Assembly: GCA_018057825.1 (NCBI GenBank)
Contig: JAGPCY010000013.1
Coordinates: 124,001-188,000, forward strand
Length of the DNA: 64,000 nucleotides
Origin: Kofleriaceae bacterium
Lineage (GTDB): Bacteria; Myxococcota_A; Polyangia; Haliangiales; Haliangiaceae
Direction of reading: 5' to 3'
The notes below the pieces were generated by a model. The model had not been told where the DNA came from. It was given only the letters and a program-made list of their open reading frames with translations, and made no database searches. Of the stretch, positions 37,035 to 42,930 are shown one piece after another. Each line of letters begins with the position of its first letter. Position 1 is the first letter of the stretch. A program made the position numbers and the translations under genes.

Positions 37035-38227
37035 CCGCGCGCCGTCTCGCCGTCGCCGTCGCGCTCGCGGTCGCGGTCGTGGTCGCCGGGCTCGGCCCCG
37101 CTGCGGCCCAGGTCGGCCGCATGGGCCTGATCGAGGCCACGCCGGGCGTGACCCCGCCGGTGGTCGAGCTCTACACGTTCGGCCGCGGCGCGCTGATCTT
37201 CGAGAAGTTCGGCCACACCGCGCTGTGCCTCGACTACCAGGAGCCGGAGCGCGAGACCGCGTGCTTCAACTACGGGGTCACCGACTTCACGATCCCGGGC
37301 GCGACCCTGACCTGGCGCTTCATCCGCGGCCAGCAGGTGTTCTTCGTCGAGGCCATCCCGCTGCGCGGCATGCTGCGGTTCTACCAGCGCGAGGATCGCA
37401 CGATCTGGCGGCAACGCCTGCCGCTGTCGCCCGAAGAGGCCCGCGCCGTCGAGGCCACGCTCCTGGGCGACCTCGATCCCAAGCGCGGCTCGTACATCTA
37501 CGATCACTTCGTCGACAACTGCACGACCCGGCTGCGCGACATCATCGATCAAGGCTCGGGCGGCAAGCTCAAGGTCGACTCGGGCCGCCGGTTCCCGCAG
37601 ACCCTGCGCGAGATGGGGCGGCGCGGCCTGGCCGAGCTGCCGCCGCTCATCGCCTTCGCCGACTTCGCCCTCGGGCGCTACCTCGATCATCACCCGACGA
37701 TCTGGGAGGCGATGTACCACCCGTTCGTCTTGCGCGACGAGGTCGCGGCGCGGTTCGGGGTCCCGGCCGACGTCGTCTACCAGCGGCGCGGCCCGCCGAT
37801 CCCCGACGACGGCCCGACCGGGCGGCCGTGGGCGCTCCTGATTGGCCTGCTCTTCGTGCTGCCGCTGGCGGTGGCCCGCGTCACCGGGCGCTTCGAGCGC
37901 GCGGCGATCGCGTTCGCCGCGGTCCCGGCGGGGCTCCTCGGGATCGTGCTGTGGACGGTGGCGATCGTCAGCACGATCCCGACCGTGCGCTGGAACGAGG
38001 CGCTGCTCTTGTACCTGCCGCTCGATCTCGCGCTGCCGTTCCTCGCGCCGGCCCGCCGCCAGCTCTACGCCCGGATCCGCCTGGGCATGGTGATCGTCGT
38101 GTCGCTCCTGCGCGCGGTCGGGCTGTTCTTGCAGCCGCTGTGGATCCCGATCGTGATCGCCTTCGCGCTCCACGGCCTCATCGCCGCGGACGTCCGCGGC
38201 TGGCTCGGTCGGCGCGCCGCGCGGTGA
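37031..38227 (+). CDS. DUF4105 membrane protein
   Basis: A 398-residue protein with a signal sequence and a DUF4105 (Lnb N-terminal periplasmic type) domain at about residues 35-235: FEKFGHTALCLDYQE, CFNYGVTDFT, FYQREDRTIWRQRLPLS and YIYDHFVDNCTTRLRDIID. The Cys in DNCTTRL and the His in FGHTAL are conserved in the family, whose fold is papain-like. The C-terminal part has five or so membrane helices (PWALLIGLLFVLPLAVARV onward). It overlaps the M16 partner by ATGA, so it belongs to the same operon. The last 50 bp overlap the antisense gene at 38178. Confidence 0.85.
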   Translation: MTARRLAVAVALAVAVVVAGLGPAAAQVGRMGLIEATPGVTPPVVELYTFGRGALIFEKFGHTALCLDYQEPERETACFNYGVTDFTIPGATLTWRFIRGQQVFFVEAIPLRGMLRFYQREDRTIWRQRLPLSPEEARAVEATLLGDLDPKRGSYIYDHFVDNCTTRLRDIIDQGSGGKLKVDSGRRFPQTLREMGRRGLAELPPLIAFADFALGRYLDHHPTIWEAMYHPFVLRDEVAARFGVPADVVYQRRGPPIPDDGPTGRPWALLIGLLFVLPLAVARVTGRFERAAIAFAAVPAGLLGIVLWTVAIVSTIPTVRWNEALLLYLPLDLALPFLAPARRQLYARIRLGMVIVVSLLRAVGLFLQPLWIPIVIAFALHGLIAADVRGWLGRRAAR

Positions 38228-38795
38228 CCAGCTCGTCGAGGGCGGCGGCCAGGGCGGCGCCGTCGCGCGCCATGCGCGCGTGGTTGTCCTCGGCGACCTG
38301 CTCGCTCACGTCGCGCGGCCGCGGCGGCGGACGGCCGGCCAGGGCGGCGAGCTGATCTGACGGCACCAGCATCGTGCCGCCGCGGCGCAGGCCGGCCAGG
38401 GTCTCGTGGCGGACCGCCTGGATCAGCGGATCGGGGGAGCGGCGCAGGAACGGGATCAGCCGCTGCGGCGTGGTCGCGTCGAGGGTGGCGTCGGGATGGA
38501 AGTCGGCCAGGGCCAGGACCTTGCCGAGCGGGCGCTCGCACAGCGCGCCGCGCCAGCGCCGGAGCGCGGTCGGATCGCCGTCGAAGTTCGGGACCACGCA
38601 CAGCCCGACCACCGCGGTCGGGGTGGCGGTGAAGCGGGCCAGGGTGTCCTCGACGTCGTCGACCTCGCAGGCCTCGATCCACACCTCGCCGCGGGCCCGG
38701 GCCGGCGCCGCCCACGGGCACAGATCGTAGGCCTCGATGATCGCGATGTAGCGCTCGGCCCAGGTGCGCGCGTCGTCCCGCTCCGCGTCGTCCAT
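38178..38795 (-). CDS. DUF1415-like protein
   Basis: A 205-residue soluble protein. TWAERYIAIIEAYDLCPWA, VVGLCVVPNFDGDPTALRRW, VLALADFHPDATLD, TPQRLIPFLRRSPDPLIQAVRH and a basic tail match the DUF1415 pattern. The family is widespread and biochemically uncharacterised. ATG 38795 gives the standard N-terminus. The 3' end overlaps the DUF4105 gene for 50 bp on the opposite strand. It lies 53 bp after the rhodanese gene, same strand, and could be the last gene of that operon. Confidence 0.78.
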   Translation of the reverse strand: MDDAERDDARTWAERYIAIIEAYDLCPWAAPARARGEVWIEACEVDDVEDTLARFTATPTAVVGLCVVPNFDGDPTALRRWRGALCERPLGKVLALADFHPDATLDATTPQRLIPFLRRSPDPLIQAVRHETLAGLRRGGTMLVPSDQLAALAGRPPPRPRDVSEQVAEDNHARMARDGAALAAALDELVTARRADRASRGRPRR

Positions 38796-38848: not shown

Positions 38849-39454
38849 TCAGCGCAGCGCGTACAGCGGCTCGAGGAAGTCGACCAGGCGATCGGAGTCG
38901 GTGCCGAGGGCGCGCAAGAGCCCGGCGGCGCGGTCGAGCAGGCGCCAGGTCCCGGTCGGTCCCGGGGTCGGCGCCGCCGGGGCCGGGGCGACGCCGCTGG
39001 CCTGGTAGACGTGGGTGAGCAGCGCCAGCGGATCGAGCTCGAGGCCGGTGTCGACCGACACCTGGATCAGCTCGGCCAGGAAGGTCGAGCGGAAGCTGGC
39101 GTGGAAGGTCCGCGCCGCCGGCGCCGGTCGCTCCTCGGCGTGGCACAGCGGGTACCCGGCCGCGCCCCAGGCCAGGAGCCCACCCTCGAGGTGACGGGTC
39201 GGCCCGAGCAGCGGCGCCAGGGCGTCGACCGCCAGGCCGCTGCGCCGGCCGCTGACGCACGACAGGACCACCGGGCCGTCGGCGCCGAGGTGGGCCAGGC
39301 GCTCGGCGAACTGCACCGGCTCGTCGGCGTAGGGCAGGAGGATCGAGCCGGGGATGAAGCCGAGCTCGGTGACCCGCTCCTCGGGCGGGCGCATGTCGAC
39401 GATGACCAGGCCACGATCGGCCTCGAGCTCGATCGGAGTGAGGCCGATCAACAT
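38849..39454 (-). CDS. Rhodanese-domain protein
   Basis: A 201-residue protein. The N-terminal rhodanese domain (1-105) has VDMRPPEERVTELGFIPGSI and the active loop CVSGRRSG with Cys66 for persulfide transfer. The C-terminal 90 residues (FRSTFLAELIQVSVDTGLELDPLALL onward) are helical and not assigned. The ATG overlaps the upstream stop (TGATG at 39454), tightly coupling it to the triple TusA-DsrE fusion. It probably supplies or receives sulfane sulfur in that relay. Confidence 0.88.
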   Translation of the reverse strand: MLIGLTPIELEADRGLVIVDMRPPEERVTELGFIPGSILLPYADEPVQFAERLAHLGADGPVVLSCVSGRRSGLAVDALAPLLGPTRHLEGGLLAWGAAGYPLCHAEERPAPAARTFHASFRSTFLAELIQVSVDTGLELDPLALLTHVYQASGVAPAPAAPTPGPTGTWRLLDRAAGLLRALGTDSDRLVDFLEPLYALR

Positions 39455-41055
39455 CAGAACACGAGGCTGGTCTGGCTCGACCGGGCGGCGTCGACGAAGG
39501 TCGCGACCCCGGCGTACTCGAGGTGCTGGTACGGGTGGAGGTCGCGCTTGGTGATGCCCATGACCGACATGCTCATCGTGCACGCCACCATGCGCACCCC
39601 CAGCTCGTCGGCCGAGCGCATGAGCGTCGGCAGATCGGTGATCTGCTGCTGGCGCATGATCGAGCCCATGATGCGCGAGCCGGCGCCGCCGAAGTTGAGC
39701 TTGCCGAGCTGCTGCTTGCGAGGGCCGCGCGGCATGAGCCACTTGAAGACCCGCTGCAGGAACGACACCTTGGCCTTGGGCTCGGTCGGGTTGGGCTCGT
39801 CGCCGCGCAGCGCGTTCAGCCCCCAGAACGTGAAGAACACCAGCACCCGCATCCCCGAGGCGGCGGCGCCGTTGGCCACCAGCATCGCCGCCAAGAGGCT
39901 CTCGAGATCGTTGTGCAAGACCAGGAGCGTGCAGTCGGGGGCGTCGGCGGCGCGGGCCACGGCGGTGGCGTCGCGCGCGACCAGCGCGGTCGAGGTCGGG
40001 GCCGCGACCAGTCGAACCGCGGCCCGGCCGGCCCGCGCGTCGACCTCGATCAGCTCGTGGCCCGCGCCGACCAGCGCGCGCACCGCCTCGTGGGTCGCGG
40101 CGGCGTCGGGCAGGAGCAGCTCGGCGGTCATCGCGTTGCCCATGCCGGCCACCGTGCGCACCGCCGCGATCGCCTCGTCGGCGGTGCGGGCCCGCCAGTC
40201 GAAGCGAGCCTCGTAGACCGCGCTCGACGCGCCGCGCGGCGCGGGCGCCGCCGCAGGCATCGGCGCGGGCGCGTCGACCGCCGCGAAGGCCGCGCTGGTC
40301 CGGATCGGGCCGGTGCGGCTGGCGAGCTGGAGCGTGACCCGCAGGGCCGCGCCGTCGCGGACCTTGGCCGCGATCGTGGCGCCGCTCGAGCGCGACCACG
40401 CCTCCACATCGGCCTCGAAGGCCGGATCGTCGGCGACGATCTCGACCGCGCCGCCGGGGTTGGTGCGGTTGTGGCGGGCCAGGGCCAGGACCGGCTCGGG
40501 GCACTGCTTGCCGCGGTAGTCGAGGACCTCGGGCGCGGTCGTGGCCCGCACCACCGGACCCGAGCCGGTGACGCGGCGGGCTGGGATGTCGACCAGCGCG
40601 CGCACCGCGCCGCCGTCGAGCTCGATGCGCTCGAGGCGGGCCCCGGCGTTGCGACACCAGGCGTCGAGGTCGGCGCGGAACGCCGGATCGTCGGCCAGCA
40701 CCTCGACCAGGCCAGGCTGGGTGCGAGCGTGGCGGGCCAGCCCGAGGATCGGCTCGGGGCATTGCCGACCGCGGAAGTCGAGGCGCGGCGGGCCGCTCGC
40801 GCGCGATCCGGTCGCCGCGGCCTTGGCGGCGATCTCGATCACGGCGCGGTGGGCGGCGCCGTGGGGCTCGAGGGACACCAGGGCGGCGCCGGCGCTCCGG
40901 CACCAGCTCCGCACGTCGGCCGGGAAGGCGTCGTCATCGGCGAGCACCTCGAGGAGGCCGCCCGCGGGGGCGAGCTGCTTGGCGGCGCGGGCGGTGCGCA
41001 GCACCGGCTCGGGACAGGCCAGGCCGCGACAGTCGACGGTCGTGGTTGGGGACAT
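39454..41055 (-). CDS. Three tandem TusA-like domains fused to a DsrE-type domain
   Basis: A 533-residue protein. Three TusA/SirA-type domains each begin with the CPEP signature: Cys14, Cys99 and Cys185 (DCRGLACPEPVLR; FRGRQCPEPILGLAR; YRGKQCPEPVLALAR). Domains 1 and 2 carry a second Cys (WCRSAG, WCRNAG), which is Ser in domain 3. After a linker there is a divergent alpha/beta region (280-355) and a DsrE2-type domain (375-533; LLVLHNDLESLLAAMLVAN, LVFFTFWGLNALRG, VACTMSMSVMGI with a conserved Cys). TusA domains carry persulfides and DsrE proteins relay them, so this looks like a built-in sulfur-relay chain. It sits between a kinase and a rhodanese gene. Confidence 0.87.
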   Translation of the reverse strand: MSPTTTVDCRGLACPEPVLRTARAAKQLAPAGGLLEVLADDDAFPADVRSWCRSAGAALVSLEPHGAAHRAVIEIAAKAAATGSRASGPPRLDFRGRQCPEPILGLARHARTQPGLVEVLADDPAFRADLDAWCRNAGARLERIELDGGAVRALVDIPARRVTGSGPVVRATTAPEVLDYRGKQCPEPVLALARHNRTNPGGAVEIVADDPAFEADVEAWSRSSGATIAAKVRDGAALRVTLQLASRTGPIRTSAAFAAVDAPAPMPAAAPAPRGASSAVYEARFDWRARTADEAIAAVRTVAGMGNAMTAELLLPDAAATHEAVRALVGAGHELIEVDARAGRAAVRLVAAPTSTALVARDATAVARAADAPDCTLLVLHNDLESLLAAMLVANGAAASGMRVLVFFTFWGLNALRGDEPNPTEPKAKVSFLQRVFKWLMPRGPRKQQLGKLNFGGAGSRIMGSIMRQQQITDLPTLMRSADELGVRMVACTMSMSVMGITKRDLHPYQHLEYAGVATFVDAARSSQTSLVF

Positions 41056-41066
41056 GGCTCCTCGGA

Positions 41067-42707
41067 CTAGCGGAGGCCGGCGCGGGCGCGCACCGACTGG
41101 ATGAAGGCCGCGCTCAGATCGGCGATCAGCGAGGTGGGATCGGTCAGGTCGCCGGTGTCGCCGAGAGCGGCGATCATGGTCGCCAGCGCCTCGACCTCGC
41201 GGACCCGCGCGGCGCGGGCCAGCCCGGAGATCCGCTCGGCCAGCCGCGGCAGCTCGGGCGCGCCGCTCGCGGCCTCGAGCTCGAGCAACAGCTCGGGCAT
41301 CGCGCCGAGGAACGACTCGTACGCCGCGGTTGGCCCCGAGCCGGTCGTCGGATGGCCGGCCGCGGTCGGCTGCGAGCCCGACAGGTAGGTGCGCGCGGTC
41401 GCCAGGGGCACGCCATCGGTCTGCGAGACCGCGGCCGCCGCCGCGTGGGTCGGCGCCGCCCGGCGCGCGCGCAAGGTCTCGCCCAGCTCGATCAGGCGGT
41501 ACCCGCCGCCGGGCAGGCGCACGCGATCGCGAAACGGCACGTCGTCCCACGCCACCGGCGCGGTGCCGAGGGCGACCACCAGGACCGGCACGTCGGGGAG
41601 GAACTCGGCGAGATGAGCGTGGATCGCGCCGGCCCGCGGCGCGGTCAGGCTGGCGTTCACGACGATGGCCGCGAACTCGCCCTCGGAGCGGGTGGCGCGC
41701 CGCGGATCGCCGGTGACCGCGATCCGCACGCCGTAGGGCGCGAGCTGGGCCCCGACCTGGGGCGCGATCGCCTCGGCGCCATCGACGATCAGGACCCGGC
41801 GCGCGACGCTCTTGGCGTGGGGCGTGACCAGGGCGTCGAGCTCCTCGAGGATCTCGTCGAGAGATGGCCGCATCCCCGGCGCCGGGTCGAGCAGGCCGCG
41901 GATCAGCGCGGCCAGGCCGGCCGGCACGTCGGGGTTGACGTCGTGCGGGTTGGCGCCGAGCTGCCAGCGGTTGGTCTCGGCGACGATGTCCTCGGGGGCG
42001 ACGCCGGCGAACAGCTCGTGGCCGGTCGCGGCCCAGTACAGGAGCGCGCCTAGGCCGAATAGATCGGACGCGGTCGTGGTCTCGCCGCGGAACTGCTCGG
42101 GCGCCGAGTAGCCCGGGGTGCCGGCGGCGAAGTCGGCGTCGCTCGAGTCGAGCAGCGACGCGATGCCGAAGTCGACCAGCTTGACCAGGCGCTGGCCGTC
42201 GTGGTCCATCGTCAACATCACGTTGTTGGGCGACAGGTCGCCGTGGCGGATGCGCTGGGCGTGGACCGCGCGGACCACGCCGACGAGCTGGCGGAACAGC
42301 GGCACCAGCTCGGCCACCGCCATCGGGTGACCGGCCAGGCGCTCGAGGCGGCTGCGCAGGATCTCGCCGTCGATGAACTCCATCGCCACCGCGGGGGCGC
42401 CGTCGCTCGTGCGATCGACGGTGTAGACCGTGCACAGGTTGGGGTGCTGGAGCCGGGTCGCGGCCCGGACCTCGGTGTCGAACCGCGCCAGGATCGCGTC
42501 GCGCCGCGGCGACTCGAGGAGCGCCCGGCGCAGGACCTTGACCACCGCCAGCCGTCCCAGCCCGAGCTGCTCGGCCAGGTAGGCGGTGCCGAACCCACCT
42601 TCGCCGAGCACCCGCACCAGGCGAAAGCCGCCCAGCTCCACGCTGCCGCAGCGATCGACGTCGATGCCTGTTCCGGTTGGGCGAGGGGGACGGCGGTTGG
42701 GGTGCAT
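41067..42707 (-). CDS. Ser/Thr kinase with degenerate receiver-like domain
   Basis: A 546-residue protein. The kinase domain (about 27-295) has GEGGFG (35-40), Lys57 (VVKVL), a catalytic loop reading HGDLSPNN (155-162; Arg of HRD replaced by Gly), DFG 179-181 and GTPGYSAPEQ. Residues about 310-420 look like a response-regulator receiver (RVLIVDGAEAIAPQVG ... VPVLVVALG), but the phosphoacceptor position reads VVNASL, i.e. no Asp. A helical C-terminus (470-545) follows. ATG 42707 starts at a natural N-terminus; an ATG ten codons upstream is possible. Eleven bases separate its stop from the TusA-DsrE gene, so it probably regulates that operon's products. Confidence 0.85.
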   Translation of the reverse strand: MHPNRRPPRPTGTGIDVDRCGSVELGGFRLVRVLGEGGFGTAYLAEQLGLGRLAVVKVLRRALLESPRRDAILARFDTEVRAATRLQHPNLCTVYTVDRTSDGAPAVAMEFIDGEILRSRLERLAGHPMAVAELVPLFRQLVGVVRAVHAQRIRHGDLSPNNVMLTMDHDGQRLVKLVDFGIASLLDSSDADFAAGTPGYSAPEQFRGETTTASDLFGLGALLYWAATGHELFAGVAPEDIVAETNRWQLGANPHDVNPDVPAGLAALIRGLLDPAPGMRPSLDEILEELDALVTPHAKSVARRVLIVDGAEAIAPQVGAQLAPYGVRIAVTGDPRRATRSEGEFAAIVVNASLTAPRAGAIHAHLAEFLPDVPVLVVALGTAPVAWDDVPFRDRVRLPGGGYRLIELGETLRARRAAPTHAAAAAVSQTDGVPLATARTYLSGSQPTAAGHPTTGSGPTAAYESFLGAMPELLLELEAASGAPELPRLAERISGLARAARVREVEALATMIAALGDTGDLTDPTSLIADLSAAFIQSVRARAGLR

Positions 42708-42849: not shown

Positions 42850-42893
42850 ATGCTGGTCGCAATGCTGGTGGCAATGCTGGTCGCAATGCTGGC
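42850..42893. repeat. Four tandem 12-bp repeats (ATGCTGGTCGCA type)
   Basis: ATGCTGGTCGCA, ATGCTGGTGGCA, ATGCTGGTCGCA and ATGCTGGCGGCT follow head to tail, each nearly identical, in the 223-bp divergent region between the kinase (42707, minus) and the exported protein (42931, plus). Translated they give MLVA repeats, but the downstream ATG is the better start. They may be an iterated protein-binding site. Confidence 0.8.
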
Positions 42894-42930
42894 GGCTGCA
42901 ACCGTGGGCCGCGGACGCTGTCGATCGATC

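Follow-up and report, generated by a model that had tools for sequence, protein, structure and literature searches.

A protein kinase gene recurs upstream of multidomain TusA/DsrE2 carrier genes in Myxococcota

A stretch of 64,000 nucleotides from a Kofleriaceae bacterium (assembly GCA_018057825.1, contig JAGPCY010000013.1, positions 124,001 to 188,000; hereafter the window) carries on its minus strand a cluster of three genes, in the order Ser/Thr (Hanks-type) kinase, multi-TusA/DsrE2 protein (the array protein) and rhodanese. The encoded proteins contain the domains of a sulfur-carrier relay with their catalytic cysteines intact, and the tight gene order recurs among relatives: in each of the 22 distinct Myxococcota array loci where the upstream sequence can be seen, the gene directly before the array gene, on the same strand, is a signalling gene. 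The chances are about even, in our judgement, that rhodanese, TusA array and DsrE2 form a cytosolic sulfane-sulfur relay in complex with a kinase-containing signalling scaffold. To our knowledge, control of sulfur-carrier relays is transcriptional, also in the literature searched. The recurrent pairing of kinase and array may point to control of sulfur handling by signalling, and the preservation of a kinase gene next to a carrier array in distant lineages offers a concrete case in which sulfur traffic may be controlled post-translationally or, alternatively, a kinase may sense cellular persulfide. As carrier domains have been multiplied and partly disarmed on a single chain, the role of extra and Cys-less carriers can also be asked.

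Signalling genes upstream of TusA arrays

Array loci were collected by searching 377 Myxococcota genomes with a profile and supplemented with loci from a genome-contig scan. The count of 22 leaves out L119, which is from the same genome as L004, that of the cultured Plesiocystis pacifica SIR-1, L117, whose upstream side is off the contig, L128, which is a 3' fragment, and L157, a further kinase and TusA at a contig end; it includes L129 and L134, which hold the 5' part of the array only. The upstream gene encodes a kinase or pseudokinase in 20 of the 22 loci and a receiver-like protein without a kinase in the other two. Gaps between signalling gene and array range from -58 to +68 bp, with six overlaps of 4 bp. 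In the window, the gap between the end of the kinase gene and the array gene is 11 bp, and the rhodanese ATG overlaps the array-gene stop codon in TGATG at 39454. Both features had been recognised in a sequence-only reading of the window and agree with the coordinates; its further claim that the kinase gene belongs with the sulfur-carrier genes in a single unit is upheld by the adjacency and strand kept in those 20 of 22 loci. Four homologues share 44-48% identity with the 533-aa array protein, so the window genes are real.

The window's own genome (8.9 Mb) yields at least 157 kinase-domain matches; a lone kinase neighbour therefore means little and it is the recurrence that counts. As a control we took 20 non-array DsrE2 loci of Myxococcota, two of which (L137, L145) show less than 0.4 kb upstream. 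A kinase is found just upstream in one of the 20, L148, and is of a generic type (Fisher P 1.7e-8 for array loci against control, uncorrected for the common ancestry of the loci and hence to be taken cautiously). Coincidence in a kinase-rich genome would explain a case such as L148, but with signalling partners upstream of 22 of 22 arrays, tightly spaced, against a kinase at 1 of 20 controls, the cluster is hardly an accident; conserved adjacency speaks against a chance neighbourhood, which we regard as scarcely credible. Apart from antisense ORFs belonging to the module, BLAST clustering of the flanking open reading frames (ORFs) gave no further family that occurs in at least three loci, and the flanks of the array loci are otherwise unrelated.

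The distribution of the arrays is patchy, since no match was obtained in two genomes listed as the same genus nor in four listed as the same family, and the kinase-array pairing recurs in distant relatives. At E 1e-55, a threshold that DsrE2-only relatives fell short of, 17 of the 377 Myxococcota genomes passed, as counted from the search table, while two other phyla gave none in 392 and none in 396 genomes. The genome-contig scan covered the best 80 of 568; in 76 of these 80, which were picked by similarity and exclude L001-L004, there was no ORF with more than one TusA domain and no kinase match.

Some array loci carry additional or different signalling genes. Two tandem kinases precede the array in L002 (1996-5072), and a further kinase follows it in L121 (7638-9128) and L124 (7163-8296). 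The receiver-like genes before the array in L126 (4603-5349, plus strand) and L131 (3423-4271, minus strand) differ in that the former adds an MJ0042-type zinc ribbon.

Domains of the three proteins

The sequence-only reading had described three CPEP TusA domains and a DsrE-type domain on a 533-residue chain, with an extra cysteine in the first two TusA copies and none in the third. All of this is confirmed by Pfam and by the residues themselves, a serine occupying the second position in domain 3 and the conserved cysteine of the DsrE2 domain being present (Table 1). The number three is correct for the TusA domains with a cysteine and understates the number of folds, because a fourth TusA-like domain was found ahead of DsrE2, after the third CPEP domain. 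A profile of this region, built from 15 family members, matches canonical TusA (probability 98.5, E 2.4e-15). In the AlphaFold model, residues 283-349 are arranged as strand-helix-strand-helix-strand-strand, the order seen in TusA domain 1, with a mean predicted local distance difference test (pLDDT) score of 69.5. Leave-one-out profiles, some scores of which may be inflated by linker composition, detected the domain in 20 of 21 array proteins, the exception being L123. The fourth domain (about residues 281-350) has neither a Cys nor a CPxP motif, and Pfam gives no TusA stretch there. By sequence and model, the array protein of the window has four TusA folds, of which three are armed; in the relatives, one to three copies per array protein are armed.

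With regard to known families, the array protein remains below the cut-offs of the NCBIfam equivalog for DsrE2 (NF047629, 41.7 bits vs 210) and of the YedF equivalog (TIGR03527, 51.4 bits vs 110). YedF resembles the array protein in that TusA is fused to a DsrE-type C-terminus, but has one TusA domain. The CstA protein of Staphylococcus aureus has one TusA domain as well. In a Foldseek search, the array model aligned with MurA-type enzymes, which are themselves repeated units of similar topology, at a template modelling (TM) score of about 0.1; we put these matches down to topology coincidence of repeated folds.

An ordered transfer of sulfur along the array had been deduced from the extra cysteines, and this we reject. 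A second Cys is nothing unusual in TusA: of the single TusA domains from other phyla, 57 of 77 have it, and so do 29 of 40 domains within arrays (20/23 for domain 1, 9/17 for later domains). Its pattern is not conserved, as other arrays differ. The third TusA copy was considered as an ancient feature and likewise rejected, since domains 2 and 3 of the window group apart from domains 2 and 3 of L115 in a tree of the 72-residue domains, the support of which is weak in places. What was seen in the earlier reading thus stands and is extended by the fourth TusA domain and by the receiver-like and HPt-like domains of the kinase, whereas its interpretation is supported only in part.

The catalytic Lys, the HGD Asp and the DFG motif are all kept in the window kinase. 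A hydropathy scan of the array-adjacent kinases revealed no membrane helix, the window kinase having no typical hydrophobic stretch, and the input of the kinase is therefore probably cytosolic. Beyond the catalytic domain, the model shows a receiver-like fold and a four-helix bundle (pLDDT of the helix blocks 86-96, save the last block). Receivers are the best Foldseek matches of the kinase model, and weak ones (E 4e-3). Among the C-termini of 23 family kinases, Pfam matches Hpt (PF01627) in nine (best 2.7e-6) and Response_reg (PF00072) in five (best 3.2e-7); the window kinase's own C-terminus has no Pfam match to either. The residue at the acceptor position of the receiver-like domain is Asn in the window, and one of 12 members of the window's subtype has Asp there in an alignment placed by eye; an HPt-type His motif (HxLKG-like) is absent from all 23 C-termini. 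As the phospho-acceptors are absent, a phosphorelay via receiver and HPt is rejected for the window's subtype. Members of a second subtype (L125, L126, L127, L130, L131, L132, L133, L134) carry a different receiver-like domain, which has an FGDM-type motif with FGD mostly kept, and no recognisable HPt.

Could the array then be a plain multidomain sulfur carrier and the kinase a general scaffold, with phosphotransfer irrelevant to sulfur? Receiver-like and HPt-like domains devoid of acceptors, pseudokinases and the receiver-only partners of L126 and L131 would all fit. However, Lys, catalytic Asp and DFG-type Asp are intact in 18 of 20 array-adjacent kinases, so that kinase activity is probably under selection, and we consider such a passive scaffold improbable.

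Two further observations concern the kinase family. The kinase ORFs of L130 and L133 encode two kinase domains per chain, the second with degenerate motifs, followed by a receiver-like domain. A divergent gene in L003 (2862-4505, minus strand) has a C-terminus like the HPt-like domain of the kinase and no confident Pfam family.

The rhodanese has the active loop CVSGRRS, and all 12 family members compared, the window's among them, share its active Cys. No Pfam family matched its C-terminal extension of about 100 aa (window 38849-39160). In most relatives this extension holds a Cys in SCF or ACF, which is found neither in the window nor in L117. A rhodanese gene lies downstream of the array in 10 of the 18 loci with that side in view.

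A possible persulfide relay and its control

Family chemistry suggests how the three proteins may work together. The active Cys of the rhodanese would take sulfane sulfur from a small persulfide donor and pass it to the CPEP Cys of a TusA domain, the one to three armed copies acting as interchangeable swinging carriers on flexible linkers. The TusA domains would hand the sulfur to the DsrE2 Cys on the same chain, from where it would go to a further acceptor. The Cys-less TusA domain beside DsrE2 may be a docking or spacing domain. The kinase, whose gene is adjacent to that of the array, would bind the array, its receiver-like and HPt-like domains lacking acceptors, and might adjust the relay by phosphorylating the carrier or a partner. 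Some lineages lost kinase activity yet kept the array, which makes the relay look like the core, with phosphorylation added to it; scaffold and carrier would be the constant part, and kinase activity a modulating layer that can be lost. Phosphorylation control of persulfide traffic is a plausible hypothesis. We tentatively propose, with somewhat less than even confidence, that the Hanks-type kinase and the persulfide relay of Myxococcota form a dedicated system and regulate each other, with phosphorylation setting persulfide flow or persulfide load setting kinase activity, and with acceptor-less receiver, HPt and TusA domains reused for docking.

Several findings weigh against a relay in complex with a kinase scaffold. 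The array loci share ancestry and the 20 of 22 are therefore not independent events. L126 and L131 have a receiver-like protein in place of the kinase, and the upstream neighbours in L003 and L118 are pseudokinases by motif, having lost the catalytic residues. The rhodanese is missing downstream in 8 of the 18 loci in view. That the kinase C-terminus is exclusive to arrays was not borne out by a phylum-wide profile search, in which the nine best matches comprise eight located next to arrays or a TusA gene and the non-array protein G288, generic receivers following lower down. Finally, the array and kinase models have low overall confidence, with predicted TM (pTM) scores of 0.37 and 0.38, and therefore no interface can be read from either.

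Rhodanese, TusA and DsrE2 are known to act together in the sulfur oxidisers Allochromatium, Metallosphaera and Acidithiobacillus. According to the excerpted account of these rhd-tusA-dsrE2 clusters (PMC4175335), the three are relay partners, as we propose for the window, and sulfur is carried by the Cys of TusA and of the DsrE-type protein; they are encoded by separate single-domain genes tied to dsr or hdr genes. In the window, by contrast, several TusA folds and DsrE2 form one chain, one TusA domain is Cys-less and a kinase gene stands in front. The window genes could nevertheless be a dissimilatory sulfur-oxidation carrier set of this type, feeding an Hdr-like or Dsr system. The three domain types are the same, and elsewhere in the genome (L155, G000:C79, about 96.2-99 kb) a DsrC-family gene adjoins a second DsrE2 gene; an SQR-like flavoprotein and a globin-like ORF, both named by eye, lie nearby. 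From this separate cluster it follows that a DsrC-type acceptor exists in the genome, as a candidate acceptor only. Yet the DsrC-family cluster has a DsrE2 of its own, and no family beyond the module recurs beside arrays in flanks of about 5-6 kb, no search aimed at hdr having been made. We give this explanation very little probability.

Several sulfur-carrier domains on a single chain are also found in CstA, a multidomain sulfurtransferase reported to take persulfide from the desulfurase SufS; there, cstA is CstR-repressed and located with cstB and sqr, and the excerpt mentions no kinase (PMC5480029). In Bacillus licheniformis, as in the window, a protein kinase gene lies beside TusA, DsrE and rhodanese-like genes, in a yrkD...nreBC...sqr-pdo cluster whose histidine-kinase system regulates sulfide oxidation. 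Unlike in the window, this kinase is not of the Hanks type but acts with a response regulator on sqr/pdo transcription, and the excerpt mentions no TusA array (PMC9918477).

The latter system is a parallel for the reverse direction of signalling, in which the array would act as sensor and the kinase as output: the persulfide load of TusA/DsrE2 would alter a docked cytosolic kinase, which would report reactive sulfur to other targets. Several carrier domains per chain would suit a graded readout, neither a membrane domain nor a recognised sensor domain is seen in the kinases, and the NreBC two-component system is sulfide-responsive in the same excerpt (PMC9918477). However, NreBC is a histidine-kinase system working on transcription, and the array is kept with two pseudokinases and at two kinase-less loci, which would be odd if kinase output were its sole purpose. 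We consider this sensor role rather unlikely, and continue to favour a relay held by a kinase-containing scaffold. No description of a Hanks-type kinase with a TusA array was found in the literature searched, which comprised titles and abstract openings, with subscription journals mostly outside coverage.

Feature coordinates and neighbouring sequences

Table 1. Coordinates of the cluster in the window and evidence for each feature
Feature	Position	Strand	Evidence
Ser/Thr (Hanks-type) kinase gene, 546 aa, first in cluster	41067..42707	-	PF00069, E 3.7e-33, 115.5 bits (cut-off 31.7); Lys, HGD Asp, DFG kept
Kinase catalytic domain, residues 29-288, HGD replaces HRD	41844..42623	-	Pfam and motifs
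Receiver-like domain, about residues 303-380; Asn not Asp at third-strand end	41568..41801	-	Model, Foldseek, Response_reg matches in family
HPt-like four-helix domain, about residues 459-543, without His	41079..41333	-	Hpt (PF01627) matches in family, model; motif AERISGLARAARV
Multi-TusA/DsrE2 protein, 533 aa	39454..41055	-	Pfam; TusA (PF01206) in three stretches, E 1.6e-46, 156.5 bits (cut-off 28.6)
TusA domain 1, Cys14 in CPEP, second Cys52	40831..41046	-	Pfam and model
TusA domain 2, Cys99 in CPEP, second Cys134	40582..40785	-	Pfam and model
TusA domain 3, Cys185 in CPEP, Ser at second position	40327..40530	-	Pfam and model
Fourth TusA-like domain, about residues 281-350, no Cys	40006..40215	-	Profile comparison, model, leave-one-out E 2.1e-6
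DsrE2-type domain, residues 375-533, Cys375 and Cys492 (ACTMSM)	39457..39933	-	DrsE_2 (PF13686), residues 376-531, E 1.2e-36, 126.5 bits (cut-off 25); Foldseek 3pnx E 9.5e-12
Rhodanese with C-terminal extension of about 100 aa; start in TGATG	38849..39454	-	PF00581, E 1.3e-8, 35.6 bits (cut-off 22.2)

The gene following the rhodanese (38178-38795, minus strand) encodes a DUF1415 protein and is outside the recurring unit. Promoter and terminator scans found none and are uninformative in this high-GC genome. On the other side of the cluster, near-perfect repeats of a 12-base unit occupy 42850-42900, where a divergent ORF begins, and its start codon is therefore uncertain. Elsewhere in the genome (L082 / L156, G000:C64, about 140-141 kb), a TusA-like protein with CPYT is encoded beside a LarE-like sulfur transferase, LarE having been named by eye.

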